DNA of 43,053 nucleotides from a virus. The stretch is taken from IMG/VR virus record IMGVR_UViG_3300036045_000027, positions 1 to 43,053 of that record; one strand, 5' to 3'. Position 1 is the stretch's first letter; the number at the start of each line of letters is the position of its first letter. The notes beneath the pieces were generated by a model. The model saw only the letters and a list, made by a program, of their open reading frames with translations. It had not been told where the DNA came from and ran no database searches. Made by a program: the position numbers and the translations under genes. Below, piece after piece: positions 1-43,053 of the stretch.

Positions 1-30
1 GTACATATACATTAGTACTATTTCGTGGTG
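1..30. repeat. Terminal direct repeat, left copy
   Basis: These 30 bases are identical to the last 30 bases of the window. The simplest reading is that the molecule is circular, or circularly permuted, and was cut open with a short overlap. A genuine short terminal redundancy cannot be excluded. If the overlap is collapsed, the intergenic region between the HTH gene at the right end and the gene at 213 becomes continuous. Confidence 0.9.
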
Positions 31-883: not shown

Positions 884-1288
884 CTACAGGGAAGGCTCTT
901 TGACCCGCCAGTCAGAAGGAACTTGGAAGGCTCCAAATCCTGCAAGCACCTTAATGAGATACCAGATCTGGTCCTTCTCCTCGACCGAGACAGTGGCAAC
1001 GACGGGCACGAGATTGAGAATGCCCTCAATCTGCGTCCAATACCCCGCTCGAATCGGATCGTACACCGGTTCTTCTGTGACGGGAGGGGGAGGTTCGACA
1101 ACGGGAGGCTCTTCAGGAATCACAGGGGGTTCCTCCGTGACGGGCGGTGGTGGTGGGGGAGGTGGAAGCAGCACATCATCCGCGATATCGCGGATGACCG
1201 CTTGCACTTCTGGATCTTGCAGTTTTTCATCAACGACATCCTCAGCTATCGATCGAATAGCTGAGACCAATTCATCGGTCAATTCCAC
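884..1288 (-). CDS. Proline-rich linker protein of unknown function
   Basis: The 134-residue product has three parts: an acidic helical N-terminus (about 1-40), a low-complexity linker with eight consecutive prolines then repeated PPVxEEP-like units (about 41-75), and a C-terminal part with WTQIEGILNLVP and hydrophobic helices (about 80-134). The start is GTG at 1288, chosen for AAGGAG six bases upstream. A rigid Pro/Glu linker joining two small domains is typical of surface or scaffolding proteins, but there is no signal peptide. It stands alone between a terminator and the CRISPR repeats, separate from the late operon. Function is not recognised. Confidence 0.7.
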   Translation of the reverse strand: MELTDELVSAIRSIAEDVVDEKLQDPEVQAVIRDIADDVLLPPPPPPPPVTEEPPVIPEEPPVVEPPPPVTEEPVYDPIRAGYWTQIEGILNLVPVVATVSVEEKDQIWYLIKVLAGFGAFQVPSDWRVKEPSL

Positions 1289-1366: not shown

Positions 1367-1478
1367 CCCAATATCCCTCAATCGGGTTTCTGGCTATTGC
1401 GACCTACGAGCGTTTGCCCTATCAGGGACGCCATTATTAATATTTCAATCCCTCAATCGGGTTTCTGACTATTGCGAC
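1367..1478 (-). CRISPR. Two-repeat mini-CRISPR array (one spacer)
   Basis: Read on the minus strand, a 37-nt repeat (1478-1442) is followed by a 38-nt spacer (1441-1404) and a second repeat (1403-1367). The repeat begins GTCGCAATAG and ends GATTGAGGGATTGAAAT. The copies match over 29 nt (1450-1478 and 1375-1403) with one mismatch. The last 8 nt of the distal copy have decayed, as is usual for the trailer-end repeat, so the leader should lie to the right (above 1478). The ATTGAAA-type 3' end is typical of repeats used by type I and III systems. No cas genes are present, so it would depend on host Cas proteins. Confidence 0.75.
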
Positions 1479-1673
1479 CGCACCACCTTTAAAGTACCAT
1501 AGGGAGCGGTCTCAAAGCAAGGTTTGCGAGAGGGTCCCCAAAATTGGGCAATTTTGCGTTCAGTTGCAAGGTGTATCTACAATAGTTTACAGCGAGTTGG
1601 GGCTTTCCATGCGGGCTGCGGGGTTTGCGAGAGGGTCCCCAGAAAATCAGCACAGCACCACCCTCTCGCATAC
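1479..1673. repeat. Non-coding region with repeated motifs, possible leader or att region
   Basis: A 20-bp direct repeat (ggtttgcgagagggtcccca) is at 1521-1540 and 1622-1641, 101 bp apart. Its core tgcgagagggt recurs inverted at 1660-1670. A palindrome AAAATTG-GG-CAATTTT lies at 1540-1555, touching the first copy. The region lies between the 3' end of recombinase 1 and the mini-CRISPR array. It could be arm sites for that recombinase, the CRISPR leader, or both. No gene was seen here on either strand. Confidence 0.6.
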
Positions 1674-2720
1674 TCATTTTTTGCCACGCACAACAGGCTT
1701 AATGAGCTTCACCCCGTCATTCGCAATCTCTCGCGATTGGGCATACCGGAGTGGCATCGCCGGGGATGCCCACCCGCCAGCATCCTGCAAACTTTTGATA
1801 TCGGTACCAGCTTCAATCGCTGACGTGCTCCAGTAGTGTCGGAGGTCGTGCGGGCTGAGCGTCTCAATACCAATACGTCGCCCTAAGACCCGTATCCGAT
1901 CCTGCATCGCTCGCATACTCATCATACCGCCAATGGGTTCGCCGAATTGGTTAGTCCTCATCCAAGGGGAGCCAGTGAGCGGACCACCTTTTCGCTGGAA
2001 CATGGTATAGGCGTGATAGGTCGATTCAGTCATGCGGTGTCTCTGGGTTTTCGCGACCTTCTCACGGTAGAAGGTGAATGTTTTCTCTTCGACATTGCAG
2101 TGCTCCATTCGGAGCGCGAGCACCTCGCCAACGCGAAGGCCATGCTCTGCGAACAGACACAGCATGAAACGGTCACGCCAGCCCTGAAATGTCTTTGGTT
2201 GCTCTTCAATGAGGAGTGCCACCTGATCCGGCGATAGCGGCGTCGGCGTCGTCTTCATCGTTGACTTGCGTGTCGCTGGCCGTGTGGCATCGACGTTGCG
2301 CCCCTGCCGGACGCCATACCCCCGTATGAGTGCAATGAGATGGCTGTCCTGCTCGGAGATGACCCCAGCCAGCGCAGCAAGCGCAGCATATCGCTTGACG
2401 GTCGACAACCGCCGATTAATGCTCGTGATGGCATACCCCATATTCACAAGATATTGCCGGAAGCCTTCGACGATTCCGTGTGTGACCCCTTCCCATGACT
2501 CGGCCTGATTGAGGAGTGCGTCGACATCGGCAACAACGACATTGAGCGAATGGAGATAGGATACAAATATGGAAAGATCGGAGCGATGGAGCTGTCGCGT
2601 GCGCACTGCTACACGTTGCGCGTAATCCTGGAAGTAGTGCGCACCTGCAAGGCGATTTGCCTCACGTCCCGCGACAGCAAGGTTGACAGGTGATCGCATC
2701 AGGGTTGTATCAGATTCCAT
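1674..2720 (-). CDS. Tyrosine recombinase 1 (Xer/phage integrase type)
   Basis: The 348-residue protein has the tyrosine-recombinase catalytic set: Arg196 in GLRVGEVLAL, Lys at about 221-224, His291 and Arg294 in SPHDLRHYWST, Trp317 in GGWASP (in place of the second His, as in Cre and some integrases), and Tyr326. Residues 25-135 fit the N-terminal helical core-binding domain. It would cut and rejoin DNA through a 3'-phosphotyrosine. Upstream lies a 13-7-13 bp inverted repeat of the size of lox or FRT sites, and downstream lie short repeats. Roles as integrase or as dimer resolvase are both possible, since a second integrase gene exists at 9251-10438. The start is ATG with only a weak SD. Confidence 0.9.
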   Translation of the reverse strand: MESDTTLMRSPVNLAVAGREANRLAGAHYFQDYAQRVAVRTRQLHRSDLSIFVSYLHSLNVVVADVDALLNQAESWEGVTHGIVEGFRQYLVNMGYAITSINRRLSTVKRYAALAALAGVISEQDSHLIALIRGYGVRQGRNVDATRPATRKSTMKTTPTPLSPDQVALLIEEQPKTFQGWRDRFMLCLFAEHGLRVGEVLALRMEHCNVEEKTFTFYREKVAKTQRHRMTESTYHAYTMFQRKGGPLTGSPWMRTNQFGEPIGGMMSMRAMQDRIRVLGRRIGIETLSPHDLRHYWSTSAIEAGTDIKSLQDAGGWASPAMPLRYAQSREIANDGVKLIKPVVRGKK

Positions 2721-3073: not shown

Positions 3074-3493
3074 CTAGCGAGGACCACCTGGAGCGGACTC
3101 CCTATCACCATGTCTCTTGCCCACCCTTTCAGAAGGCAACAGGCAAATAAGAAGAATGCGCAGAACATCAGGGGTGGATGAGACACATCCACTCACAAAG
3201 CCAGAACAACGGAGGTCTTCCTGTCGTTTGAGGCATATCTTTGCCAAACGGCAAAGATATGCCTCAAACGACAAAAACGACACAGAAACAATGGCAACGA
3301 TTGTTCCCACCCCTTTTGCGGATACGTACGTCAGATGGATTTTTCCTCGAAAGGTCAGCGATGCCTCCATCTTGACAAAAGGACGTACGGCAGAATGAAA
3401 CTCCAATACTGCCCGATGAGAATCGGTACAATACGCCCAGTGTTCAAGTGTTCCTAATCCCCATATTTCCTGGCTGTTAGGACGATCTGTCAT
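3074..3493 (-). CDS. Unknown protein overlapping the repeat region
   Basis: The 139-residue reading frame starts at an ATG overlapping the stop of the HNH gene (ATGA) and has a strong GAGGAGGG site 7 bases upstream, so translation initiation is credible. The first ~75 residues (with HWAYCTDSHRAVLEFHS) look protein-like. The rest reads through the perfect inverted repeat at 3223-3272 and becomes unusually Cys- and Arg-rich. Either the C-terminus is tolerated coding sequence over a cis-acting site, or the gene has been truncated by the repeats. No family was recognised. It would be the last gene of the early operon. Confidence 0.5.
   Translation of the reverse strand: MTDRPNSQEIWGLGTLEHWAYCTDSHRAVLEFHSAVRPFVKMEASLTFRGKIHLTYVSAKGVGTIVAIVSVSFLSFEAYLCRLAKICLKRQEDLRCSGFVSGCVSSTPDVLRILLICLLPSERVGKRHGDRESAPGGPR
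3223..3272. repeat. Perfect 23-bp inverted repeat with 4-bp spacer
   Basis: Positions 3223-3245 and 3250-3272 are exact reverse complements around aaac. Each arm is a full copy of the unit repeated at 2933-3067. It could extrude as a cruciform, hold two initiator dimers head to head, or form an RNA hairpin at the end of the early transcript. Confidence 0.75.
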
Positions 3494-3825
3494 TCTTTTC
3501 CCTCCTCAAACATCGCTTGCTGCCCAATTTTGCGAGCAGCCTCTAACCGCTTCTTCGCTCGTGTCCGTTTCGCATTCTCGGCGTGCTCCTCGGCGTCTTC
3601 GGCGAGGTGGCATCGCTGGCAGAGCGCAACGAGGTTGGAGCAATCCATCTTGTCGTGTTTGTTTGGTCCGACGTGCGCAACAGTGAGCACGACCTTGCTC
3701 CCCGTCGCTGGATGTGGCTTGCCTTGCTGAGCATGGCACCACTCGCACATCCATAACGCAGCCTGACGCACACGGAGCGAGATTTCTTTCCAGTTACGCG
3801 GATAGCGTGTTCGGTCCATCGGCAT
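3490..3825 (-). CDS. HNH endonuclease-like protein
   Basis: The 111-residue protein carries a zinc-stabilised HNH fold: Cys27-x2-Cys30 (MCEWC), His51 in TVAHV, Asn64 in CSNLVALCQ, and Cys69-x2-Cys72-His73 (CQRCH). The family nicks or cuts DNA with a metal ion. HNH genes often accompany terminases, but this one lies in the early operon directly after a DNA methyltransferase, overlapping its stop (TGATG at 3823-3827). That arrangement suggests a role in DNA modification, restriction or recombination rather than packaging. The basic C-terminal helix (KRTRAKKRLEAARK) probably contacts DNA. The start at 3825 is set by the overlap. Confidence 0.8.
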   Translation of the reverse strand: MPMDRTRYPRNWKEISLRVRQAALWMCEWCHAQQGKPHPATGSKVVLTVAHVGPNKHDKMDCSNLVALCQRCHLAEDAEEHAENAKRTRAKKRLEAARKIGQQAMFEEGKE

Positions 3826-4691
3826 CAGGCCACCTGCTTTCGGAATATCCATACCTGTTCGGTCGAGATCGTCGGAGCGTCTGGAAACTTCTTGGAATAC
3901 AAAATGCGCCAGAACGATTGCTGCGGGATCTGCCAATCGTCACATCGCACAAAGGACAATCCAGCACTGACAATAAGGTCATGGTTCTGCTTGCCAATCG
4001 GAACAATTGCTTGATCGCGTACACAGTCACGTGTCACACAGATGAGATACCCACCATGACGAAGGACATGCGCACATTCACGCCAGACTTGAGCCATTGA
4101 CTGAAGATAGTCTGTCCCTTTCAGATTTCCAATATTGTTATGATTGGCATCATAACGATTGGGCTGATTGAATTGCGAATGTCGAGAGACGACCGATTTC
4201 CCTGTGGTTCCACACGCCGCCGCGGCGACGATGCTTTTCCCACGCGACTGACCACTAAAAGCGTCGGCATAGGGCGGCGATGTGATGATGAGGTCAGCAA
4301 AGGTATCTTCATCATATCCATCAAGCGACGCAAGCGTAGCCCCTAATGCGCGACTGTCGCCCTGAATTGCAAGGTAGTCCCCACATCGGTCAGAATCAAG
4401 CATCTCAAACGACCGAGAAAATGTATCCCAAGCTCGCCGCTGCATTTCCACAAAATGCGGCGCAAGGTCGACTGTTGCAACATACATCCCGTACTGTGCG
4501 CCTGCGGCGAGCATGGCCGTGCCAGAACCACCGAACGGATCGAGGAGGAAGCCACCGCGAACATGGAAAATAGTGAGGTAATGGCACAGCTGGTGCAAAT
4601 TCATTTTTGCCGGATGTGTCATGACTGTTTCACCAAAAAGACGTTTTCGTAGACTGTCATCACGTTCGAGAACTAATGGTTTGTACATCAT
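3825..4691 (-). CDS. DNA (N4-cytosine or N6-adenine) methyltransferase
   Basis: The 288-residue protein has an AdoMet-binding motif DPFGGSGT (residues 51-58) and catalytic motif TSPPY (137-141), which marks exocyclic amino methyltransferases. It would transfer methyl groups from S-adenosylmethionine to C or A in a short target. No matching restriction enzyme is visible beyond the HNH protein downstream, so it is probably an orphan phage methyltransferase protecting phage DNA from host restriction or influencing regulation. The start at 4691 overlaps the preceding stop (ATGA) and has GAGGGAG upstream. TSPPY favours N4-cytosine but does not settle the base. Confidence 0.85.
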   Translation of the reverse strand: MMYKPLVLERDDSLRKRLFGETVMTHPAKMNLHQLCHYLTIFHVRGGFLLDPFGGSGTAMLAAGAQYGMYVATVDLAPHFVEMQRRAWDTFSRSFEMLDSDRCGDYLAIQGDSRALGATLASLDGYDEDTFADLIITSPPYADAFSGQSRGKSIVAAAACGTTGKSVVSRHSQFNQPNRYDANHNNIGNLKGTDYLQSMAQVWRECAHVLRHGGYLICVTRDCVRDQAIVPIGKQNHDLIVSAGLSFVRCDDWQIPQQSFWRILYSKKFPDAPTISTEQVWIFRKQVA

Positions 4692-9078: not shown

Positions 9079-9317
9079 GGTGCAAATTTGGTGCAACAAG
9101 GGTGTTTTTCAGGAAATCCACAGCATCAATGAGATGCTGTAAAGCGAGATTAATTGTGTCTTGGGCATGTCTTGGAAAATGTGAGAAACGTAATGGGCAC
9201 TCGTGGTATCAGTTCCTCATCTTCCTCCACATGCTTGCTATGATAGGGCATTAATCCTCACTCGTGTTGCTTCCAATCTGACCACTCCCTCCTTTCTGGT
9301 GCATATTTTGGTGCAAC
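9079..9317. other. Candidate attP region of integrase 2
   Basis: Paired ggtgcaa motifs occur at 9079-9097 (ggtgcaaatttggtgcaac) and at 9299-9317 (ggtgcatattttggtgcaac); the second pair lies inside the 3' end of the integrase gene. Similar paired motifs close to the end of integrase genes commonly serve as arm-type sites. The 182-bp gap 9069-9250 has no gene and would hold the core crossover sequence, which I could not pick out. A small stem, cagcat/atgctg, is at about 9121-9138. Confidence 0.5.
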
Positions 9318-10438
9318 TCGTATTTGGGTTGAAATAGGCTCTCCATATGCTCTCGTGCGCTTTCGTGCATTTTGTTTGTGACATGGACATAGCGGCGCAA
9401 CGTGATCTCGACGTTTGCGTGCCCAAGGAGTTCTGATACCACCTTGATGTTGGCACCCCGCTCGATCATCAGCGTTGCGAACGTATGGCGCAGGTCATGA
9501 ATCCGAATATCTGGTAATCCCAGCCTGCGCAGGAGCCTATCGAATTGCCGATCAATTGTTGCTGCAACCAAGGGTATCCCGATTTCATTCGTAAAAACTA
9601 ATTCTAGCGGATTCTTCCATGCTTCACCGACCATTTCTTGGTCAGCCTGTTGAATCGCTTTCATCTGCGTGAGCGCGTCACGAGCGATGCTGTTCATAGG
9701 AAGAACCCGTCGCGCACGGCGCGTTTTCAACTGCTCTAGGGAGGCTTTCCCTTTTGCCGAATAGAGATTCTTTGCGACTCGTATCTGGCCTTTGTCAAAG
9801 TTGACCATCGGCCAGGTTAAGCCGCGTAGTTCTGATAGCCGCATGCCCGTCTGCAATGCCACAATGACAAAAATTCCGTAGCGGTTTTCCTGCGCGGCAT
9901 CAATAAGTCTTCGGCATTGCTCCTCGCTGAGCGTCTGAAATTCATGATCAATCATGCGTGGTTTCTGGACGGTATCGCACGGATTTTTTGCGATGTATTC
10001 CAGCGAGATCGCATACGCAAAAATGGCGCGAATCGTCTCATGGATATTGCGGACATAATTAGGATGCAATGTCTCTAGCAATGTCACGATTTGACGTTGG
10101 ATATGCATGGGTTTAATGTCTTGCACGGCCATATTGTGAAGATCCTCGCCAATACGAAGACGGACAATCACGTCCAGATTCCGCAAGGTATTGGGTTGTA
10201 GCGGCTTCTGGCTTTTCAGCCAATCCGCTGCAAGGGATCGCAGTGTGGGGCTTTGGGGGGCTGTGTGTACGCCGTCGCGGACCTCGCGCTGGCGTTCTTG
10301 GAGCCATGCACGCGCCTCAGCCTTTTTCTCGTAGCGAGGAGACGTGACGCGCTTCCCATTAATGATGATTCGCCCTCGCCACTTGCCCGTCGCCTCTTCT
10401 TGCCAAACACTCCCACCGATGGCTTTGAGCGTTGTCAT
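9251..10438 (-). CDS. int: Tyrosine recombinase 2, phage integrase
   Basis: The 395-residue protein has an N-terminal arm-binding domain (about 1-60, IGGSVWQEEATGKWRGRI), a SAM-like core-binding domain (65-155) and a catalytic domain with Arg200, Lys238, His314, Arg317 (IHDLRHTFAT), His340 (LLGHAN) and Tyr350. This is the classical prophage/ICE integrase layout. The excisionase gene upstream overlaps it by 4 bp, and repeated ggtgcaa motifs sit at its 3' end, so this is probably the chromosomal integrase. It is unrelated in domain plan to recombinase 1. Confidence 0.93.
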   Translation of the reverse strand: MTTLKAIGGSVWQEEATGKWRGRIIINGKRVTSPRYEKKAEARAWLQERQREVRDGVHTAPQSPTLRSLAADWLKSQKPLQPNTLRNLDVIVRLRIGEDLHNMAVQDIKPMHIQRQIVTLLETLHPNYVRNIHETIRAIFAYAISLEYIAKNPCDTVQKPRMIDHEFQTLSEEQCRRLIDAAQENRYGIFVIVALQTGMRLSELRGLTWPMVNFDKGQIRVAKNLYSAKGKASLEQLKTRRARRVLPMNSIARDALTQMKAIQQADQEMVGEAWKNPLELVFTNEIGIPLVAATIDRQFDRLLRRLGLPDIRIHDLRHTFATLMIERGANIKVVSELLGHANVEITLRRYVHVTNKMHESAREHMESLFQPKYELHQNMHQKGGSGQIGSNTSED

Positions 10439-10656
10439 GACGCCTCTCCCATCTGTCGGATGAGATAATCCTCAATCGCTTTGCGAGGGATGAGGCGGCG
10501 TCGCCCCATTTTGAATGAATAGAGTTTATTTCCCGTTGTTTTTTTGCTCAGTATGGTACGAAATAGGGTGGTGGTGCTGACACCAAGGACAGCGGCAGCC
10601 TCGTCGATAGAATAGCATTGTTTGTTTTCTATGCCGAGCGATATTTTCTTCCCCAT
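10435..10656 (-). CDS. xis: Excisionase-like HTH protein
   Basis: The 73-residue protein carries a MerR/excisionase-type helix-turn-helix (YSIDEAAAVLGVSTTTLFRTI, residues 15-35) followed by the wing SFKMGRRRLIPRKAIEDYL. Such proteins bend attP or attL/R DNA and set integrase direction. The gene is 4 bp overlapped with integrase 2, supporting a coupled int-xis pair. A role as transcription regulator is possible but less likely. Confidence 0.8.
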   Translation of the reverse strand: MGKKISLGIENKQCYSIDEAAAVLGVSTTTLFRTILSKKTTGNKLYSFKMGRRRLIPRKAIEDYLIRQMGEAS

Positions 10657-13018: not shown

Positions 13019-13047
13019 CTTCGCTCAGTTGGGCTGGGCGATTTTTT
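13019..13047 (+). terminator. Possible plus-strand terminator
   Basis: TCGCTCA pairs with TGGGCGA (one T-G pair) around a GTTGGGC loop, followed by seven T on the plus strand. No plus-strand gene ends here; it would stop antisense transcription entering the switch region. It may be fortuitous. Confidence 0.35.
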
Positions 13048-13274
13048 TATGCAGCAGACTCGCGCTGCTTAGCTTCTTCCTGCTCTAGAACCTCAATAAT
13101 GCGTTGATTAATGAGCCGATGCACAAATTTTCTCTTCCCCTTCTCATACAGGTTTATTGTTTCATTCGTGCATCCAACGAGTTGAGCCAACCTTACCTGC
13201 GTAAGATTCAATGCAAGGCGTCTCGCTCTCAGTTCATAGGAGGAAATTAATTTGATTTCATGTACTTCACTCAT
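13047..13274 (-). CDS. Cro/CI-type XRE regulator
   Basis: The 75-residue protein has a classic XRE helix-turn-helix: LRARRLALNLTQVRLAQLVGCTNETINLYEKGKR split over residues 13-46. The start at 13274 is fixed by GGAGG seven bases upstream; a longer frame has no SD. It is the first gene of the long minus-strand early operon and divergent from the HTH gene at 13465, so it probably acts as Cro or an early repressor at the shared intergenic operators. Confidence 0.82.
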   Translation of the reverse strand: MSEVHEIKLISSYELRARRLALNLTQVRLAQLVGCTNETINLYEKGKRKFVHRLINQRIIEVLEQEEAKQRESAA

Positions 13275-13297
13275 AGTGTTTACCTCCAACGATCTCA

Positions 13298-13326
13298 AGT
13301 TTATCATTTTATCTGTTAAAAGTCAA
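13298..13326 (-). promoter_or_regulatory. Promoter of the early (minus) operon
   Basis: On the minus strand TTGACT (13326-13321) and TAAACT (13303-13298) are spaced by 17 bp, upstream of the XRE gene. Five of six and four of six positions match consensus. It should drive the early operon down to about 3074. Confidence 0.65.
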
Positions 13327-13464: not shown

Positions 13465-14028
13465 ATGCCACGCACACCGCTGAAGCCGTCAACGGAATAC
13501 CCGCCATTTGCGGAACTATTGGTACAGTTCATGTATACCCGCAACCCTCCCATGAACATTACTGGGCTGGCAAGGTTGATTGATGTCTCGAAGGCGACGA
13601 TTATTAACTGGTTGCGTGAATCTGCTTACCCTCAGCCGCAAATGCTCAAATTGATTGAGGAAAAAACCGGAATTTCTGAAATGGAGTTGAGGATTGCCAT
13701 TGATAAAAGCAAGAACCTGAAATTTTTCCAGACGTTTGAGGAACTCTACCGCTATGCGCAGGAGCATATCCACACGTGGAATATGCCAGAAGAGGATGAG
13801 CAACTGATGCTTGCCCTTCTTGCGCAAACCGTCACAGAAAATTGGAAATCCACTCGTAGCGGATGGAAACGCCTTTGTACGTATGTGCTAGAAGAAGACA
13901 TCTCTCAATTTGAGAAATGTCTTCAAATCTCGTTTCTTATGCAAGCCTATCTCGCCGACCCCGTACGTGATACTGATTTTTCGTCCTTACGGCATTTGGC
14001 TGTCCGCACACCAACTCAGCCTGAATGA
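13465..14028 (+). CDS. HTH transcription regulator (lysogeny control candidate)
   Basis: The 187-residue protein has an N-terminal helix-turn-helix (ITGLARLIDVSKATIINWLRES, about 32-53) followed by a helical domain, TGISEMELRIAI and a long C-terminal helical region (about 85-165) that could mediate oligomerisation. It is transcribed divergently from the small XRE gene, the typical CI/Cro pairing, and so may be the lysogenic repressor. No self-cleavage (LexA-like Ser-Lys) motif was found. GGGAGAGGG precedes the ATG. Its 3' end overlaps a convergent small gene. Confidence 0.75.
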   Translation: MPRTPLKPSTEYPPFAELLVQFMYTRNPPMNITGLARLIDVSKATIINWLRESAYPQPQMLKLIEEKTGISEMELRIAIDKSKNLKFFQTFEELYRYAQEHIHTWNMPEEDEQLMLALLAQTVTENWKSTRSGWKRLCTYVLEEDISQFEKCLQISFLMQAYLADPVRDTDFSSLRHLAVRTPTQPE

Positions 14029-17429: not shown

Positions 17430-17759
17430 ATGATCGAACTGCCCATCTTCCAGATTCTCATTATCATCGTGTTTTCCATCATTGTGATGGTCTACAATTT
17501 TCAGGTCAACCGTGAGAATCGTCGCATCAGTAAGCGGCTCCATCAAGCCGAGGAAGCGATTGCCCTTCTCAAAGGAGAGGCAATCGAAATGATCACTGCG
17601 ATGGTGCGTCGTGATACAACACATCCTTTTCACGCACTGACCGAAGCAACATATCGCCAGTATCTTCGGGAGCGTACCACCATTCCCGAATCGCATCATG
17701 ACGCGATGGTGCGTGGCATGCGACGATTAGGCGCGTTCGACACAGAGGAGACCACGTAA
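17430..17759 (+). CDS. Membrane-anchored coiled-coil protein
   Basis: The 109-residue protein (ATG 17430; GTG 17427 also possible) has a membrane helix at about 4-24 (IFQILIIIVFSIIVMVYNF), then a charged helical coiled-coil segment (NRENRRISKRLHQAEEAIALLKGE) and a C-terminal part (HALTEATYRQYLRERTTIPESHH). GAGGAGG lies upstream. The same plan, helix then coiled coil, forms the N-terminus of the ring nuclease gene that follows, with a one-base overlap. The C-terminal domain is not recognised. Confidence 0.65.
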   Translation: MIELPIFQILIIIVFSIIVMVYNFQVNRENRRISKRLHQAEEAIALLKGEAIEMITAMVRRDTTHPFHALTEATYRQYLRERTTIPESHHDAMVRGMRRLGAFDTEETT

Positions 17760-18325
17760 TGGTCACGCTTCCTCTGTGGCAATATGTCGCCATGCTGATC
17801 ATCATCATTTTGCTCATTGCCTGTGTCATCAGGCTTCGTAAACAACATGATAACCTCGCTGAGGATCTTGAAGAAGCCACGTCATTATGCCAGACATTGC
17901 AAATCGCTCACATGTCTGCTCAGATGAACATCCAACAGAAGGAGACCCACCCCATGCATGTCTATCTTGCCAACGCGCTCAGTCTCAACATGACTGACCC
18001 GGACGATGAATCCGTTTCATTCACCCGCACGCGCCTGACTCCCAAAAAGGCCGCCGACTATCTCAAGAAATCGACGTTCCACGTGCTTAATCGTATCGGC
18101 CATCCCGATACAGCGACAGTCGTTGCCAGCCAACTTGCCGAATATGGCTATACGGCCCCAGAAGCCAAGCGTGAGGATGTCACTCTAAAACAGGGCGATG
18201 TGGTCTACGTTGCCCAATACACTGGCCCGCGTCTCCCAGAAGGCGCAACGCACCTGCCAGAAGGCGCAAAAATCATCTGGTATCGGGTCGTTGTTACCCG
18301 CGTAACTGGCCCCGCTCAACGCTGA
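17759..18325 (+). CDS. acrIII-1: AcrIII-1 (DUF1874) viral ring nuclease with N-terminal membrane anchor
   Basis: Residues 66-188 match the DUF1874/AcrIII-1 family: YLANALSLN at the start, GHPDTA with catalytic His115 (His50 of the short form), and RLPEG with Arg and Glu three apart (158 and 161; 93 and 96 of the short form). The family cleaves cyclic tetra-adenylate made by type III CRISPR, silencing ancillary nucleases such as Csx1. Residues 1-65 add a membrane helix (about 5-23) and a coiled coil. An internal ATG at 17954 (residue 66) has AAGGAG nine bases upstream, so a 123-residue soluble form of normal family length is likely too. Confidence 0.85.
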   Translation: MVTLPLWQYVAMLIIIILLIACVIRLRKQHDNLAEDLEEATSLCQTLQIAHMSAQMNIQQKETHPMHVYLANALSLNMTDPDDESVSFTRTRLTPKKAADYLKKSTFHVLNRIGHPDTATVVASQLAEYGYTAPEAKREDVTLKQGDVVYVAQYTGPRLPEGATHLPEGAKIIWYRVVVTRVTGPAQR

Positions 18326-33332: not shown

Positions 33333-33962
33333 CTAAACGATGGCCATCCAGTCAAAGGTCGCGGTCACACCCGCTCCCAAGGCTGTCTGCAAGGTAATAG
33401 TGAAGGTGGTGGCGGTGAGGGCACTGACCCACCACCGCGATCCTGGATCAGATGTGGGGGTCACAAGAACGCGGGTTGGAGCAGGAGAGAGACCATGCGT
33501 CACATCCACACTCGCTGTTTCCGCTGCGACCGTCGCTGTCCCCTTTGCAAGAAGCGGCATAGGCGCACGCCGCGTATCAACAATATTATCGCTCGTGATG
33601 GTGGCTGTCCCTGCGGGAACATAGATGACCGCAAGGGCGAGCGCAGATGGCGGCACGGTAGGAAATGTGGGAAGCTCCGAGGCCGCTCCTCGTACGAGGA
33701 ATGCCCCGTTCGATGAATCCACACATACGATATCAAAGCGGTGCAAGAAGGCGTCTGGAGCCGCGATCGGGATGGTACAAGCGCGAATGGTGACGACCAC
33801 CCCTTCGATGACCGCAGATCCAGTAGCGACGGTCACAGTCATCGTTGTGGGATCAGTCGCCGCCACTGCCCCGCCAGATACCCACAGGTTGCCGACCTGC
33901 GGGATATACGTTGCCTCGGTGCCACGAGCGGCAATGGCCTGCGCACACGTTAATGTTCTCAT
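33333..33962 (-). CDS. Head fibre-like / structural beta-rich protein
   Basis: The 209-residue protein has beta-strand sequence throughout, with TAVTVATGSAVIEGVV and a C-terminal module (THGLSPAPTRVLVTPTSDPG, FTITLQTALGAGVTATFDW) that is common at the end of phage fibres. It lies between the MuF toxin and scaffold genes, an unusual place for a tail fibre, so a head fibre or surface decoration protein is favoured. It overlaps the 50-residue gene upstream (ATGA). Confidence 0.6.
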   Translation of the reverse strand: MRTLTCAQAIAARGTEATYIPQVGNLWVSGGAVAATDPTTMTVTVATGSAVIEGVVVTIRACTIPIAAPDAFLHRFDIVCVDSSNGAFLVRGAASELPTFPTVPPSALALAVIYVPAGTATITSDNIVDTRRAPMPLLAKGTATVAAETASVDVTHGLSPAPTRVLVTPTSDPGSRWWVSALTATTFTITLQTALGAGVTATFDWMAIV

Positions 33963-34111
33963 GATTGGGTCTCCTCATTCTCCCCGTCATGGGCGAGTTC
34001 TTCGAGGCGCATAATTTCCAAATGTGCCTCGAAGAACTCGCCATCAATATCTTCAAGAGCACCGACAGATGCCTCTTCGATCACTTCATTCCAGTCAATA
34101 TTCGGACTCAC
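33959..34111 (-). CDS. Small acidic protein downstream of MuF toxin
   Basis: The 50-residue gene starts at GTG 34111, overlapping the previous stop (GTGA), and ends overlapping the next start. It has many Glu and Asp (SPNIDWNEVIEEASVGALED, EENEETQS-type tail). A perfect 17-bp inverted repeat at 33992-34042 lies within it. It could be an immunity or packaging partner of the toxin, but this is only positional. Confidence 0.55.
   Translation of the reverse strand: MSPNIDWNEVIEEASVGALEDIDGEFFEAHLEIMRLEELAHDGENEETQS
33992..34042 (-). repeat. Perfect 17-bp inverted repeat in coding sequence
   Basis: GGCGAGTTCTTCGAGGC (33992-34008) is complementary to 34026-34042 with a 17-nt loop. It lies in the last part of the 50-residue gene. 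As mRNA it would be a strong hairpin before the fibre-like gene, able to block ribosomes or define an RNA end. Confidence 0.75.
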
Positions 34112-34320
34112 GGCATCCCCTCCAGCACGTCGATAAAGGCCAGATACGGATGGCGCAGAATCGCGGAGCGATACACTGCGGTCTCCTTGAATTCCTCAAC
34201 GGTCATGCCACTGAAGGCAAGTAATCCCAGCAATTCCTCACGAGTGTCGGGAAGGTCATCCCCGCTTGTCCGCATCCAGTCGCGGTTGTGTTCGTATTCG
34301 TCTGGCGAGAAGATAATCAT
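34108..34320 (-). CDS. Small protein downstream of MuF toxin
   Basis: The 70-residue protein (MIIFSPDEYEHNRDWMRTSG, ELLGLLAFSGMTVEEFKET) starts at ATG 34320 overlapping the stop of the toxin gene (ATGA). It is acidic and helical. Immunity genes of polymorphic toxins are often placed directly downstream, so an immunity role is possible. No family was recognised. Confidence 0.6.
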   Translation of the reverse strand: MIIFSPDEYEHNRDWMRTSGDDLPDTREELLGLLAFSGMTVEEFKETAVYRSAILRHPYLAFIDVLEGMP

Positions 34321-37300
34321 GGGGTCTCCTCCTCATCGGTGCTCTTTTTTGTCTTTTTCGTCGTGCTCCGCTTTGTTTTCTTCTGTGTCAGCGGAGCCGC
34401 CACCACAGCAAGAGCGACGCTTTCATCAAGCGTATCATAGGCATCATCGTTTCGGAATGTATGATCTGCGAGAGCGACAGACCGCAGGAAGCCTGGTAGT
34501 GTATCACCTCCGAGCACCGTGAATTCAAATTCTCCCGATGATCCAAATCCCGTCAGCGGGATAGCTAGGATTCGCCTAACGGGGACCACTGCGCCGAATA
34601 GCACCGCGTGCGTTGGCGTGAAATTGAGCATATTCCATGTTCCCGCGAACTGCACAGCGGTTGCGGCATTCGAGGTGAACGACGACACTGGCAGGAGCTT
34701 GAGTGCAGCCTCACGCACCTGGTTATCATAGGGGAAGTCTGGCTTGCCTCTATTGGTGAAACTCATGCCGCGATACAACGGAATCTCCGTGATACCATTC
34801 TTCCTGAACCACGACTGCGTTTCATTATACATCGCTCGCATGAATGCACGGAAGCCAGGGATTGCAGCACCATATTCTTCGAGATATTTCTTGCGTGCGG
34901 CGGGCGTAACGACGCTCACCACATCTTTGAGGCCGAATTCCTGTTCAGCAGCAATTTGGAGCGTTTGGATGACGGGGTTTTTCCCGCCAACTGACCACGA
35001 TTTGATGAGCATATTTACCGTGTTAGAGACAAAGAGGTAGCGTGTCGCGTCATCAACTTGGCCACTTGCTTCGGCTTTGACAAACTGATCGTAAACGCGT
35101 CTGTATTCCCTGCCCATATCAGGATTCAAGCTGATCAATTTTTGTGCAAGCAGCTTACTTGCAATGATGAGGTCATCATTCTTGCTGAGGCGTTTGGTAA
35201 GTTTTTCGACGACTTGTTGTTTCTTGACTTGGGCAGTTGTATCAAGATTGCCACCATCAAGCAAAGTGCTTGCGGATTGCTGCACGCCAATGAGTTGAGA
35301 CCGTCGCAAACTTCGCTGCGATGATTGGCGGACAGACGGTGGGTCAATGACAATGGGCTGGGATTTATCGGGGATGCGCTGAGCGACATTGAGGAACCTA
35401 CTCGTTATTGGATCAGATTGAGTCGCAAATGAGACGAGAACCTCATCACCACCATACGATGAGGGAAACACATTCATATTTGGCACGCCGAGAAACATCG
35501 CCGCTTCCACACGGAGCGATTGAGGAAATCTAATCTTGATAAATGGCACCGGGGTCTCTTTTAGAAATTGTATGGCCCTTCCTGCGACCAAGGCACTTGT
35601 ATTGAATGCAGTAATCGTATTGGCAAATGTGCGGTTAAGGATAGAAAAAGAAACTTGAGGCTGGCCAGTATAGTTTTGAATGTCAAATTGAAAGGCCGTA
35701 ATCGTATTGGAGTGATAGATCGCATCGGGAGCAACGGTTGGAGGATATGGCGTTGCAACCACTACCTTGATATCCCTCCAGCCAGACCCTTCCACGGTCA
35801 CACGAAATCCTCGCCTCGCGCCAAAAAGCAACCCAATATCTTCTTTGCGAGCAATTGGCACACCCAACGCTCTAGCAAGATTGCGCATTTGCACATCGGT
35901 CGCGTTGACTAATGCCCCTGATCCTCCGTTCAACCAATCAAGTTCCGATTCTGCTTCAAGCACCGCGTATTCCAATGTCTCAATATTCGGAAGCAATTGA
36001 GCAATACGCTTATTAACGGGGATACGCCGAAATTCCTCTAATGCTTGTTGTGCTGCTGCTCGGCGGGATTCAATTTCTTGTCGGAGTTGTGGGGTGCCGC
36101 GCTGATGCGCAGCACGATAGGTGTCAAACACCGGAAGATTTTCTTCCACGACCACGTTTGTTTCGACGGTATCCTGAATAAACTTTGTAAGGGCTTTTTG
36201 TGAGGCGGGAGTTAACCGTTTATATGCTTTCTCTAGATCTTTTGGGAGTACTGACGCTTTAACCACTTGGTCCTTGGTTGCGATCCCATCCTTAATCAGC
36301 TTTGCCGTCCACGTGTTATACTGCTTCATTACCGCTTGAAAATACTGCTCGTTGGTGATAACTTGAGGATCTCTATTAGCAAAATTCTGTCGCAGAGCGT
36401 AAATCGTCGCCTGCATTGCAACGATATCGTCATTCTCAAGTTGCCGAACAAATCCTTCTGATGCCGATTTTAACCGCTTCTGATATGCTGTAATGTCCTT
36501 TTTCCCGCGCAAATTTCCCCACGCCAGATTGTCCCAATATTCTTTGTAGTATTTTTTTGTTGTTTTATTCTGTGGATTATTATTGCCAGATTTACCAAAC
36601 GCATATGCATACGACATATACCCAGCTTCATTAAGAAATTTCTTGAGATATGCGAGTTCGCGCTGGGCAACTACTGCCCATCCGCCAATCCTCCTCCCTT
36701 CGACAAGGAAATCAAAGCGTTTCTGCTCATTGAGCATGTCTTGGTAGATCTTGCCCGTAAATCCTTCTCCAGTCGGTAAATCATACGTAAACAATTGCCA
36801 TCGATCCATGAATTCCCGCATTGTCGTAATGACCTCTTTGGGCAATTTCTGGTTAGTACGTAAATAGGGCAAGGGTAATTCTGGCAGGTCTCCGAGCGCA
36901 CCAACATCAAGAGCCGTAATATTGAGCAGCGTCAACAGCCAAGGATTGGCCACAAAGAAGGTGCGGATCTTGTTGAGGATCGGGGCCATCCCCACACCGA
37001 GCGAGAAGCCTCCTCCTGGCGGCAGTGGCCCACCCATCGGTTCGCCAGGGTTGGCATGGCGAGCGGCACGGGCGGCGAGGCGAGTCACAAAGGATTGGAA
37101 GACATTCCAGCTATAGCTGTTCTCGTTGAAATCGAAGGTAGCATCCCAGGTGATGCCGTTTTTCTTCCACCAGATGCGTCCTTCTTTTGTGCGCATGAGC
37201 TGCTCAACGCGAGTCACGGTCGGCCCAAATACGCGCTGAACAGCAGGGAGGACCTGAGAGGGGATATCGCCGACGAAGCCGAGCTGTGCCCAGGTCCAGT

Positions 37301-38912
37301 AGCCGTTCATTGGCTGTTCTTTGGGTCGCTTCGGATTGTATTCTCGGCGTCCGGCTGACGCTTCCAGTCGGTCAAATCCCAGACGCTTGAGATGCGCAAA
37401 CTGTTCAATGACCTTGATGCCACTGATTGCGCTCTTCTGCCCAAAATTGAGAACGCTGGAATCCTTGTGGATCAGATTCCCGTTGGCATCACGGCGGATC
37501 ACAAAATCAATGACCACATTGCGACTGATTGCGCTGACGGCTAAATCCTTGAACGATTCCTTGATGATGATGGTGGTATCCGGATCATCCGTGGTAATCC
37601 GGATCAGGTCGTCATAGGTGATATCCCGCTGAAAGAACGCTTTGAGCCTTGCGAAAAATTCCTGTTTTGTCCCTTGATATTGAAACAGATACGTCCGGTT
37701 GTTGATGACGACCTTCTCTGACGAATAGCGTGGTTTTGCTTTTTGTGGCTGAGGCCACGGCTGAGGCATGTCTGCCGGATTTGGCAATCGGACCGTCGCA
37801 GCAAAATTACGCGGTATCCCTAATTCGTCCAGCGTGGCAATTCTGAGTCCTCGTCCCCATTGACGATCCCGTGTGACTTTGGCAAGAGACTCAAAAAACG
37901 TGCTCGCTGAAATCATACCAGCTCGTTGTACAAACCAAGCATAACGTGTTGTTCCAAGGACTTGAAGCTTCTGTGCTTCAGGAAGGGAACGGAACCAGTA
38001 ATAGGCGGTATTAAACAGGTCGCTGGTTGATCCAGTTGTCCCCTGCACCTTGTCGAAAACATACAGTTCTTCCTGGCTGAGTCCAGCGTTTTTCAGGTAG
38101 TCTGAAACATTCTTACGCAGAAGGGGGATGGGAACACAACGACACGCTGGATGTGAACCAAAAGGCCGCGAGAGCGGAAACTCTTTGCCATCCATCGCAA
38201 GACAGGCAATACAGGTCCGGAGGCTCCACGCTGCCCGCCACCGCCATCCTTTCACAACATCCGTATTATTCCGGTACGTCCCAACTGCTGCATTGCGGTA
38301 ACTCCGGAGCATCTCAGTCCGGGCAATGAGCGCACCACGACGAACAGGCAGATCCGCGATCTCCTTCAACTGCCGCCCGACTTGACGTGGGTTGAGGCCC
38401 ATCGCTAAGCCTGTGAACAGGCCGTCCGCTATCTGGCCCGCCACGTTCTGCCCCATTGCCGCAAACAACGCATTGAGCGGAGAGCCAGGACGCATCGACC
38501 CTGCCGACTGCTCCATCGCATCAAGACTGGGGATGCCGAAGCCGCCACCAATCGGCGCAGGAATGACCGAGCGTAGCTGCGCTAAGGCGACCTCTCCGCC
38601 CATCGCGGCGGCGTCGGCCAGAGCCAGCGAAATAGTTGACTGGGCGTAACTGCTCCATCCGTTCACGCCTTCCTCAACGAGCCTCAACAGTTTGCTGAGC
38701 CGATCCTGCTCAGTGAACCACGAGCGTGGGATCTGATTGGCTGCGCCAGTGTACGACTCCATCGCTTTTGCGAGGTCGTCAATGGCTTGGCGAATCTGAG
38801 CACGTGCCGCTTCATACGACGCCGCCATCGCTTTTGCAGCTTCGGCCTCACGGCTCAGCAATGCTTGGCGGTATTCGGTTGTCACGCGCTCCAGATCGCT
38901 CGGCTGACTCAT
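34317..38912 (-). CDS. MuF minor head protein with C-terminal ADP-ribosyltransferase toxin
   Basis: The 1531-residue protein has a MuF-type head domain at about 1-265, with Cys234-x2-Cys237 and HPACRC (254-259). A GNAT-like fold follows at about 435-610 (ISGIKVIEQFAHLKRLGFDRL, NGYWTWAQLGFVGDI). The C-terminus holds an R-S-E ADP-ribosyltransferase: LYRGM with Arg1381, SSFTS at 1410-1414, and GEFEF with Glu1461 and Glu1463. A basic tail (KKTKRSTTKKTKKS) follows. MuF proteins are packaged in virions of temperate phages and may carry toxins. Middle parts (600-1350) are unrecognised. It overlaps portal and the next gene by 4 bp. Confidence 0.8.
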   Translation of the reverse strand: MSQPSDLERVTTEYRQALLSREAEAAKAMAASYEAARAQIRQAIDDLAKAMESYTGAANQIPRSWFTEQDRLSKLLRLVEEGVNGWSSYAQSTISLALADAAAMGGEVALAQLRSVIPAPIGGGFGIPSLDAMEQSAGSMRPGSPLNALFAAMGQNVAGQIADGLFTGLAMGLNPRQVGRQLKEIADLPVRRGALIARTEMLRSYRNAAVGTYRNNTDVVKGWRWRAAWSLRTCIACLAMDGKEFPLSRPFGSHPACRCVPIPLLRKNVSDYLKNAGLSQEELYVFDKVQGTTGSTSDLFNTAYYWFRSLPEAQKLQVLGTTRYAWFVQRAGMISASTFFESLAKVTRDRQWGRGLRIATLDELGIPRNFAATVRLPNPADMPQPWPQPQKAKPRYSSEKVVINNRTYLFQYQGTKQEFFARLKAFFQRDITYDDLIRITTDDPDTTIIIKESFKDLAVSAISRNVVIDFVIRRDANGNLIHKDSSVLNFGQKSAISGIKVIEQFAHLKRLGFDRLEASAGRREYNPKRPKEQPMNGYWTWAQLGFVGDIPSQVLPAVQRVFGPTVTRVEQLMRTKEGRIWWKKNGITWDATFDFNENSYSWNVFQSFVTRLAARAARHANPGEPMGGPLPPGGGFSLGVGMAPILNKIRTFFVANPWLLTLLNITALDVGALGDLPELPLPYLRTNQKLPKEVITTMREFMDRWQLFTYDLPTGEGFTGKIYQDMLNEQKRFDFLVEGRRIGGWAVVAQRELAYLKKFLNEAGYMSYAYAFGKSGNNNPQNKTTKKYYKEYWDNLAWGNLRGKKDITAYQKRLKSASEGFVRQLENDDIVAMQATIYALRQNFANRDPQVITNEQYFQAVMKQYNTWTAKLIKDGIATKDQVVKASVLPKDLEKAYKRLTPASQKALTKFIQDTVETNVVVEENLPVFDTYRAAHQRGTPQLRQEIESRRAAAQQALEEFRRIPVNKRIAQLLPNIETLEYAVLEAESELDWLNGGSGALVNATDVQMRNLARALGVPIARKEDIGLLFGARRGFRVTVEGSGWRDIKVVVATPYPPTVAPDAIYHSNTITAFQFDIQNYTGQPQVSFSILNRTFANTITAFNTSALVAGRAIQFLKETPVPFIKIRFPQSLRVEAAMFLGVPNMNVFPSSYGGDEVLVSFATQSDPITSRFLNVAQRIPDKSQPIVIDPPSVRQSSQRSLRRSQLIGVQQSASTLLDGGNLDTTAQVKKQQVVEKLTKRLSKNDDLIIASKLLAQKLISLNPDMGREYRRVYDQFVKAEASGQVDDATRYLFVSNTVNMLIKSWSVGGKNPVIQTLQIAAEQEFGLKDVVSVVTPAARKKYLEEYGAAIPGFRAFMRAMYNETQSWFRKNGITEIPLYRGMSFTNRGKPDFPYDNQVREAALKLLPVSSFTSNAATAVQFAGTWNMLNFTPTHAVLFGAVVPVRRILAIPLTGFGSSGEFEFTVLGGDTLPGFLRSVALADHTFRNDDAYDTLDESVALAVVAAPLTQKKTKRSTTKKTKKSTDEEETP

Positions 38913-40237
38913 TGCGGAAATCCACCGTAGGGCGGCAAGTCACGCCCCTGAGTCATCATGCTCAGGCTCGCTTGGGCTTCTTCTTGGTTCTGCTCCATCT
39001 CCATCTCTGCGTTATAGCCAAGCTCGTTGATAAGCGTCTTTTTGCTGATGCCAAGCTGGTCTTTCAGCAGAGCCGATTGGAGCACTGCGTTCTCATCCGT
39101 CGGCAAAAGCTTGGGCCAGTGAATAACAATCTCAACATCACCGGAGAACCCTGCCAGCACGAGGATGCGCTGGCAGGTCTCCTCAATCAATTCCCCGTAC
39201 AGCCTTCGCTTCATCTCCGTTTTCTCAATGAGCGGTTGGAACATGAGTTGCAGTGCCACGCCAGAAACGTCGCCACGCGGCAGATCCGTGAGTCGCCCCA
39301 GAGCCACGCCTGGGATACGGCTCACCTCGTCCATATCGCTTCGGAGCATCTCAACAAAGCGCATGGACGAAGCAAGATCGCTCTGCATCTCCAAATTTTG
39401 GAGCGTTGCGCTGTCGGGAAGGACGATCACGGCGTCGATGCTCTTCCGCATCTGGGACGGGTTAAAGCCTGTCCCCCACGTCACCGGACTAGCGTGGTAC
39501 TTGATAATGCGGGAGATGTTACTTTGCACAAAATTGAGAATATCATTGTGCTGGATGATATCAGACGAGAGGTCAGGGAGGCCGTAGAGTTCGTTGGGGT
39601 TGATGAGATTTTGGCAATCCACAATAGGCGGGAAGGTATACCGCCAAGGGATTGATGGGCCATCAGGAAGCCAGTCCTCTTCTCGCGCTTTCTGGAGATA
39701 ATTCTGCATGATCCAATCTCTGCCCGTCCAAGAGATCTCTTGCTTCTTCGCAACCGTGCCACCTTCAGCGTTCTTCCCTGTCCAGTAGATGCAGTATTTG
39801 GTCACGATATCGATATCATCGGGATCATGCTCCATCTCGACGCGCTGCGAATCAAGAACGACTAGGCGTGGAACATTTTGTGACGGCATAATACGGAGAT
39901 AGGCATGTCCCGTTATGGCACCCTGCATCGCAAGCTTCGCCAAGAGCGTCATCTGGCGGTTTTTTCGCCAGACAGCATCAAGAAAATTCTGCTCATCGCT
40001 CGGCGGCGTATCGGGGTTGGAGATTTGGTATTCATCCCGAATCTCGATACGGATATCCTGGCCGAAGAGAAACGACACACCCTTATTGACGATGGGGGCG
40101 CAGCGATTCGTGATGGCGTTATCATCCATCGCGTCGCTTTCAGGCTTGAGCGGCTTCTTGAACTGGGCATGATACGCCATCCACGCCGCATTCATGGCAT
40201 CACGGCGGATCTGCTCTGGAGATCGTCTGTCGATCAT
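38909..40237 (-). CDS. Portal protein
   Basis: The 442-residue protein is between TerL and MuF. It has features of SPP1 gp6-type portals: WMAYHAQFKKPLKPES at the start, INRCAPIVNKGVSFLFGQD (about 42-60), PWRYTFPPIVDCQNLINPNELYG (about 195-217) and LTDLPRGDVSGVALQLMFQPL. It forms the dodecameric ring for DNA entry and tail attachment. Confidence 0.85.
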   Translation of the reverse strand: MIDRRSPEQIRRDAMNAAWMAYHAQFKKPLKPESDAMDDNAITNRCAPIVNKGVSFLFGQDIRIEIRDEYQISNPDTPPSDEQNFLDAVWRKNRQMTLLAKLAMQGAITGHAYLRIMPSQNVPRLVVLDSQRVEMEHDPDDIDIVTKYCIYWTGKNAEGGTVAKKQEISWTGRDWIMQNYLQKAREEDWLPDGPSIPWRYTFPPIVDCQNLINPNELYGLPDLSSDIIQHNDILNFVQSNISRIIKYHASPVTWGTGFNPSQMRKSIDAVIVLPDSATLQNLEMQSDLASSMRFVEMLRSDMDEVSRIPGVALGRLTDLPRGDVSGVALQLMFQPLIEKTEMKRRLYGELIEETCQRILVLAGFSGDVEIVIHWPKLLPTDENAVLQSALLKDQLGISKKTLINELGYNAEMEMEQNQEEAQASLSMMTQGRDLPPYGGFPQ

Positions 40238-40241
40238 ATTG

Positions 40242-41561
40242 TCACCTCAATCGGGGCGCATACATCACATCGGATGGCGCAAGATCAAAATGGGCCACGC
40301 CGTAGCGAAGCGTATCCATGCCGTGATCATCTTTTTTGACGGGCACCTCTTTCGCCTTGTTTTGGCTCGTATCCCAGACATAGCCGTCAATTTCTTCAGC
40401 AGTTGAGCACGGCAGGCGATGCTCGGTAAGAAGCGCGTCGCGTTCGACAAGGGCAGACCGCATAATGAGGAGGCGTGGCTTGCCGTCTCCAGCGGGGCGA
40501 AAACGCGCCGAGACCGCCTGTATCCCAGCCGACACCGCCTTATGCGCTGGCGTCGTTGTAAGGCCGATATGTCGCTCTAGCGTCGCTCGGTCTTCGGCGT
40601 CATGGTCACAGATGACCGCTCGCGGGAGCGGCTCGCCGTCGTCCGTGCCCCAGCGAGACAGTCGACGAATCTGCTTTGCATGATCCTCGACAAGCCTGCG
40701 GGTCATATAGATCTCGCGGTAGAGATAGATGCGACCATCGGGGTCAATGGCGAGCCAGTGACAGACGAACGGATTGGTATAGCCAAAATCGATGACGAGG
40801 TAGCGTGGCCAGTCGGCGGGAATACGGAATTGGTCAATGATATTGCGAGCGGCGTCGAACGAATCCTCATACACAGCATTCTCAGCCGCCGCCCATTGGC
40901 CCAAGCGCAAGCGGCGATACCGCACACCTGTCAGCGCATCAAGGCGGCCCAAATACTCTGAGCCGAAACGAGTGATGACACCTTGAGCGTCATAGAGCAA
41001 GGGGTTATCCTCATGGCGTGAAACTAAGCGCGTCGTGCGACCTTCAATCATACGCTGGTTGAGCCAATGGGTAGGCGCAGCAGGATTACAGTCGCCGATA
41101 AGCTGCATGTATGGCGTGATGCCATTACGGAGGCGCGTGGTCAGAGCTTCGAGGTCGTCAATGTTGAGGTCCGTCGCTTCATTGACCATGATCATGTCGT
41201 ATTCGCCGCTCATGATTTTCTGGGGCTTGTCTAGGCCGCCAATAGCGATGGTCGAACCATTCGGATATTCGTATCTGGCGGGCTTGTCACCGCTATCACC
41301 GCGAAAGATGACGCCATCACCATCATGCAAGACCTTACGCCGGAACGTCTCAAGCGCAGTTGCCTTGAGCGACGCCAGTGTCTTCCTGACCACGAGCGCA
41401 CGCATGCCAGGAAACAGCATGCACAGGGCATGGAGCTTGTGCCAGAGGGCGAGCGTCTTGCCTGTCCCTGCTGGCCCATCAAGGATGACCTCTCGATCTT
41501 GACAGAGACCAAGTTGATGGGCAGCACCACGTGGGAAATAGCTAATCTCGATGAGGGACAC
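40242..41561 (-). CDS. terL: Terminase large subunit
   Basis: The 439-residue protein has Walker A GPAGTGKT (29-36), Walker B MIMVNEAT (123-130), and nuclease motifs YLVIDFGYTNPF with Asp258 and ICDHDAEDR with further acidic residues near 335. It drives packaging and cuts concatemers. It overlaps the TerS gene by 20 bp. The order TerS, TerL, portal, MuF is typical for siphoviruses. Confidence 0.95.
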   Translation of the reverse strand: MSLIEISYFPRGAAHQLGLCQDREVILDGPAGTGKTLALWHKLHALCMLFPGMRALVVRKTLASLKATALETFRRKVLHDGDGVIFRGDSGDKPARYEYPNGSTIAIGGLDKPQKIMSGEYDMIMVNEATDLNIDDLEALTTRLRNGITPYMQLIGDCNPAAPTHWLNQRMIEGRTTRLVSRHEDNPLLYDAQGVITRFGSEYLGRLDALTGVRYRRLRLGQWAAAENAVYEDSFDAARNIIDQFRIPADWPRYLVIDFGYTNPFVCHWLAIDPDGRIYLYREIYMTRRLVEDHAKQIRRLSRWGTDDGEPLPRAVICDHDAEDRATLERHIGLTTTPAHKAVSAGIQAVSARFRPAGDGKPRLLIMRSALVERDALLTEHRLPCSTAEEIDGYVWDTSQNKAKEVPVKKDDHGMDTLRYGVAHFDLAPSDVMYAPRLR

Positions 41562-41973
41562 CTGCGACTCCTTTCAGCCACTCTTCTGGATAGATGCGGT
41601 TAAGCAGGGCACCGGAACTGGTGCGTTCGGGGTCAAGGCCCATGAGGTCACGGCGGCTCTTAGAGATGGCGAGGATGCGGTCAACGGCGTAGAGATCGAG
41701 TTCTTGGCCGTCCTCACCGCCAAGAGCGTTCCAGACTTTGGCATGGAGCGCGTCAAGGATATCCTGCTCACGGCGGCGCAGTTCATCGACCTGTGGCGCG
41801 ATACGGCGTTCAAGCTCGCGGAGGATGGCGTACCGTGCGCCACTGGCATCCTTATACCCACATCGCTTGGCGATCTCCTCATACGTCAAGCATTCCAAGC
41901 GCAATTTGAGCGCAAGGAGCACCCGCTCAGCGGCGGCAACGTCGCGGTTTCTTGGACTGCTTTGTTTGGACAT
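41542..41973 (-). CDS. terS: Terminase small subunit
   Basis: The 143-residue protein starts at ATG 41973 (MSKQSSPRNRDVAAAER); the open frame extends to 42189 but upstream sequence does not look like protein. A helix-turn-helix is visible in LTYEEIAKRCGYKDASGARYAIL, followed by a helical oligomerisation part. It would recognise the packaging site. It lies upstream of TerL with overlap, and the repeats at 42353-42514 are a candidate target. Confidence 0.8.
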   Translation of the reverse strand: MSKQSSPRNRDVAAAERVLLALKLRLECLTYEEIAKRCGYKDASGARYAILRELERRIAPQVDELRRREQDILDALHAKVWNALGGEDGQELDLYAVDRILAISKSRRDLMGLDPERTSSGALLNRIYPEEWLKGVAGVPHRD

Positions 41974-43023: not shown

Positions 43024-43053
43024 GTACATATACATTAGTACTATTTCGTGGTG
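43024..43053. repeat. Terminal direct repeat, right copy
   Basis: Exact copy of bases 1-30; see the left copy. It indicates a circular or circularly permuted molecule of about 43,023 bp. Confidence 0.9.

Follow-up and report, generated by a model that had tools for sequence, protein, structure and literature searches.

A one-spacer CRISPR mini-array without detected cas genes in the genome of a temperate tailed phage

The DNA analyzed here (43,053 nucleotides of the IMG/VR virus record IMGVR_UViG_3300036045_000027, called the window for simplicity) carries at positions 1367-1478 two 37-nt repeats (1367-1403 and 1442-1478) around a 38-nt spacer (1404-1441), exactly where an initial annotation had placed them. 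The reading direction of the repeat-spacer-repeat unit is the minus strand, and in that direction the locus contains the following features:

1674-2720, minus strand: tyrosine recombinase Int1 (Phage_integrase and SAM_1 domains, Xer-like; Pfam 6.5e-24; PHROG integrase)
1479-1673, minus strand: candidate leader region from int1 to R1 (putative function)
1442-1478, minus strand: CRISPR repeat R1, leader-proximal and intact, GTCGCAATAGTCAGAAACCCGATTGAGGGATTGAAAT, with a 31/32 match to R2
1404-1441, minus strand: spacer of 38 nt, ATTAATAATGGCGTCCCTGATAGGGCAAACGCTCGTAG, occurring once within the window
1403-1367, minus strand: terminal CRISPR repeat R2, GTCGCAATAGCCAGAAACCCGATTGAGGGATattggg, equal to R1 at 30 of its first 31 nt and decayed in its last 6 nt
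884-1288, minus strand: proline-rich ORF of 134 aa, downstream of the array

R1 and R2 align over a core of 32 nt with 31 identities at a spacing of 75 nt, and up to the decayed end R2 differs from R1 by one T/C change. The decay at the 3' end of the terminal copy had been recognized before; since the array is read in the minus-strand direction, that copy (1403..1367) lies distal to the leader and its decayed part is the minus-strand 3' end. A degenerate 3' end is typical of terminal CRISPR repeats. The divergence of R2 begins at position 32, two bases beyond the expected Cas6 cut (29/8), so that all parts for one crRNA are kept and what was lost is the handle of a second crRNA that does not exist, a pattern to be expected if one crRNA was all that the array needed to supply. 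The 3' end of R1 is GGGATTGAAAT, near the usual CRISPR 3' end GGGATTGAAAC; R1 contains the usual ATTGAAA at its end, with T as the last base where C is usual. The unit thus has the anatomy of a generic CRISPR array, i.e. direct repeats of 23-50 nt, nearly identical to each other, with a unique spacer of about their own length in between.

The pair R1/R2 is far beyond chance: self-BLAST returned it with E ~6e-8, and the expected number of such pairs lying no more than 100 nt apart anywhere in the window is ~2e-11. When ~1.2 Mb of loci were scanned for CRISPR-like spaced pairs, the only families besides the pair in the window were the true arrays of an archaeon (L088) and of a phage (L006), a tract of tandem repeats (L004), and short repeats in L018 and L059. 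The archaeal array, from Natronococcus jeotgali, was the only true array retrieved with a loose repeat pattern across 85k species; it is a multi-unit array with the repeat GTCACAATGTAATGGAAACCCGGTCAGGGATTGAAAC, and its layout is that of R1 (GTC.CAAT..GAAACCC..AGGGATTGAAAC is common to both). The two repeats align with a score of 18.5, part of which stems from the pattern used to retrieve the archaeal repeat, and shuffles (n=5000) reached at most 8.0; the GTC.CAAT end, which lies outside the search pattern, still matches at 7/8 bases. R1 is therefore assigned to a known CRISPR repeat type through the layout of this array, no near-identical repeat having been found elsewhere. The fold of the R1 repeat was not significantly better than that of shuffles (z ~-0.9), tRNA and Rfam scans were empty, and no papers quoting the repeat sequence were found. 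Judged from its sequence, with a non-random repeat pair and the layout of a real array, 1367-1478 is, as had been proposed, a genuine CRISPR unit and not a dispersed repeat.

The phage array found in the same scan (L006:6860-8910, IMGVR_UViG_3300027706_000010) belongs to a related phage with a terminase 58% identical to that of the window. It consists of 8 repeats of 37 nt and 7 spacers of 35-38 nt, the last spacer being duplicated, and lies directly after a gene for a 491-aa TnpB-like effector (PADLOC Cas12u4 1.6e-69; PDB TnpB 3e-43). This makes it a single-effector CRISPR of V-U4-like type, carried by the phage upstream of its terminase genes. None of its 7 spacers matched the window.

The array in the window is located downstream of int1, 195 nt beyond the gene's end and on its strand, in agreement with the recombinase neighbor reported initially. 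The intergenic stretch carries direct copies of a GCGAGAGGGT (CCCC) motif at 1521-1543 and 1622-1645 and an inverted copy at 1660-1673, which are possibly recombinase/attachment sites or operators. No clear sigma-70-type promoter above chance was detected in 1479..1673, the only candidate being a weak extended -10-like TGGTACTTT near 1499. The downstream ORF 884..1288 has a promoter-like match (TTGGGA-18-TATAGT, 1371-1342) that begins within the decayed part of R2, but such matches are no more numerous than expected by chance. If attP lies between int1 and the array, the array would occupy the far end of the prophage, which is the usual place of cargo genes.

The carrier is, by its gene content, a temperate tailed phage: it encodes terminase, an SPP1-like portal, a gp7-like capsid protein, tape measure and Dit proteins, a DnaB helicase, two methylases, two tyrosine recombinases and HTH repressors, and its nearest terminases among named phages are those of Thermobifida and Streptomyces phages. 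Features pertaining to lysogeny are:

9251-10438, minus strand: tyrosine integrase Int2 (SAM_3 and Phage_int_M), probably the lysogeny integrase
10435-10656: HTH_17 gene adjoining Int2
13047-13307, minus strand: HTH_3 repressor-like protein, divergent from a second HTH_3 gene at 13465-14028 on the plus strand

The two tyrosine recombinases are of different kinds, Xer-like at 1674-2720 and of the temperate-phage type at 9251-10438. Two further genes on the minus strand were observed: an HNH endonuclease at 3490-3936, which resembles the C-terminal part of ZorE (PADLOC 6.3e-13), and a 1531-aa protein at 34317-38912, whose N-terminal domain is of the head-morphogenesis (Mu F-like) kind and whose very long C-terminal part had no listed matches.

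At the contig ends, a 30-bp direct repeat (1..30 identical to 43024-43053) and the inverted arms GTTATACGTA and TACGTATAAC, which flank the end junction, support a phage genome that is a closed circle and includes the array. The genome is probably complete, at ~43.0 kb (about 43,023 bp); less likely, it is a provirus cut at attachment repeats. An origin of the array from host flanks or an assembly edge is disfavored by the same end repeat and junction arms. Another IMG/VR record (L005, from the metagenome IMG 3300021517) contains an 8.3-kb piece identical (100%) to 33456-41789; it does not cover the array, and its identity indicates that the phage is a real population. Among 58 predicted proteins no Cas family appeared in the 25 families listed each for PADLOC, Pfam and NCBIfam, so that the initial report of a genome free of cas genes holds as far as these lists reach. 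Having one spacer and phage structural genes as neighbors, in a contig with the 30-bp end repeat and without a Cas family among the listed matches, the unit is a real further example of the already known virus-borne mini-arrays (cas-less arrays of 1-2 spacers in viral genomes), and of ordinary size.

The initial annotation had proposed looking for host arrays with the same repeat and for viral matches to the spacer, and neither search returned one. With exact degenerate patterns, no host array was found in 85k genomes (the scan gave one archaeal array of like layout and three single matches, likely chance) and no related viral array in IMG/VR; at up to 3 mismatches the repeat was absent from 398 genomes of the phylum of Clostridium and from the four hit genomes, and BLAST of the repeat against plasmids and phages gave chance-level matches alone. 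The spacer had no protospacer in phages, plasmids or IMG/VR when searched with two exact seeds and one codon-degenerate pattern. Searching with a 16-nt seed of the spacer returned 11 matches, none better than 25/38; shuffled spacers reached similar values at best in a smaller set of loci, and we therefore treated the 11 as chance. All of these negatives are weak, since the collection scans were exact-match and may omit records near the window, and the mismatch search did not reach the likely host phyla. Within the window no self-target was detected, the best seed being 9 nt with 15/38 matches overall. In plus-strand frame 1 the spacer translates to LRAFALSGTPLL, which recalls an SNF2-helicase motif; the codon-degenerate scan gave one 22/38 chance match and this lead was dropped.

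The same genome had been said to encode an anti-type-III ring nuclease, and the family and fold matches support this:

17759-18325, plus strand: AcrIII-1/DUF1874-like ring nuclease of 188 aa, with the core from residue 66 (base 17954)

The match to PF08960 has an E-value of 4.2e-5 (6.2e-7 for this genome) and 24.0 bits, just under the curated cut-off of 26. The structural model is weak (mean pLDDT 63), and the fold search placed DUF1874/Crn2 structures at all ranks from 1 to 13 (2j85, 6scf, 2j6b, 2x4i, 8y7f, 8y7g). In the alignment with 2x4i, H115 (in IGH) falls on the catalytic H47 of SIRV1 gp29, N72, S75 and N77 fall on N8, S11 and N13, and the R and E of PRLPEG on R85/E88; the H47A mutant is described as inactive (PMC7213978). 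The DUF1874 fold together with the conserved catalytic histidine and accompanying residues supports, at the level of remote homology, an AcrIII-1-type ring nuclease with putative cA4 cleavage. A hydrophobic helix is predicted at the N-terminus, followed by a long helical linker before the core, and if the start at 17759 is correct the enzyme is putatively membrane-anchored; residue 66 is an alternative start of this ORF.

The reading that we favor, with little more than even confidence, is that this cas-less temperate phage uses its one-spacer mini-array for heterotypic superinfection exclusion by means of host Cas6 and a host type I or III effector. For transcription, Cas6 processing, compatibility with the host and the target (its identity as well as its nature), we infer the following course. 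The array would be transcribed on the minus strand by read-through from int1 or from a weak local promoter, and host Cas6 would cut within both repeats to give one crRNA with AUUGAAAU as its 5' handle, followed by the 38-nt guide and the hairpin part of the repeat (29 nt). Loaded into a host type I or III effector, this crRNA would direct the destruction of a co-infecting or superinfecting element. Speaking for this are the non-random repeat pair, the CRISPR-typical sizes and the CRISPR 3' end on R1, in addition to the location of the unit in a phage genome with no cas genes detected and no self-target. Against it stand the single known copy of the locus, without conservation evidence for its upkeep, the terminal T of R1, the unremarkable repeat fold, and searches that found no host array, related viral array, protospacer or convincing leader or promoter.

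Arrays of this kind are known from several carriers. Clostridioides difficile prophages contain CRISPR arrays without cas genes; these are likewise carried by temperate bacterial tailed phages and rely on host Cas, whereas they are longer and their repeats match the I-B system of the host. Host-Cas-dependent exclusion of a competitor has its precedents in archaeal viruses (PMC6858448; review PMC11656645), and on this precedent the phage array may be used against competing viruses. The Saccharolobus portogloboviruses SPV1 and SPV2 (PMC6858448) share with it 1-2 spacers, the absence of cas genes, the intergenic position and normal repeat and spacer lengths; in contrast to the temperate tailed phage they are archaeal viruses, with matches in the host for their repeats and promoter-bearing leader and in rival viruses for their spacers, whereas no such matches were found for the phage array in our searches. 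The Acidianus two-tailed virus also has one spacer between two repeats, but is an archaeal bicaudavirus with a known host repeat (cited in PMC6858448).

The strongest competing explanation, which we regard as possible though clearly less probable, is that the unit is a captured remnant: the last repeat, spacer and terminal repeat of a host array, moved beside the recombinase by recombination or imprecise excision and now inert or decaying. The degenerate terminal repeat, like the tail of a host array, the recombinase and attachment-like repeats which the unit adjoins, and the failure to find a leader-like promoter or, in the searched collections, a target all speak for such an origin. However, the near-identity of R2 to R1 over its first 31 bases, with decay only beyond the crRNA-relevant part, is at odds with it. 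So is the usually rapid loss of functionless intergenic DNA from phages.

We consider it improbable that the locus is a decoy in the manner of RNA anti-CRISPRs (Racrs), in which repeat RNA binds host Cas6/Cas7 and poisons host CRISPR. Phage-borne repeat mimics without cas genes are known (PMC10651486), and this genome already has one likely anti-CRISPR in its AcrIII-1-like gene. Racrs are, however, solitary repeat units, whereas the phage array has two repeats and a spacer: the SRUFinder rule assumes a mini-array when another match of >=90% identity occurs within 100 bp (PMC10651486), and here a copy of 97% identity lies 75 nt away, with a spacer of normal length between intact Cas6 sites.

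Far less probable still is a regulatory guide. CreTA modules make crRNA-like RNAs, and a single guide between one good and one degenerate repeat resembles these; a CreR-like RNA would repress a phage or host promoter by partial matching, without DNA cutting, but the window contains no seed of at least 10 nt, and the 9-nt match lies inside the capsid gene. Least credible is a direct repeat for attachment or recombinase binding that imitates CRISPR, since, in spite of the adjoining int1 and the other short direct and inverted repeats in the same intergenic stretch, the unit has the full 37-nt layout of a real array at CRISPR spacing and the related integrase loci L002-L004 have no such repeat beside int.

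Returning to superinfection exclusion guided by the mini-array, its coexistence with the ring nuclease need not be a conflict: AcrIII-1 acts on cA4 and would leave crRNA-guided type I cutting unblocked. A more specific proposal, which we hold to be doubtful, is that the phage pairs the two, the mini-array guiding host Cas against a rival while a membrane-anchored AcrIII-1-type ring nuclease would clear the cA4 alarm and so keep the borrowed CRISPR activity from setting off host dormancy or death. If the array is functional, this would be a compact example of a bacterial temperate phage that borrows host CRISPR while encoding a likely type III anti-CRISPR, and it would offer a direct test of whether phages can exploit as well as disarm one and the same host immunity, and of the CRISPR type involved in each direction.
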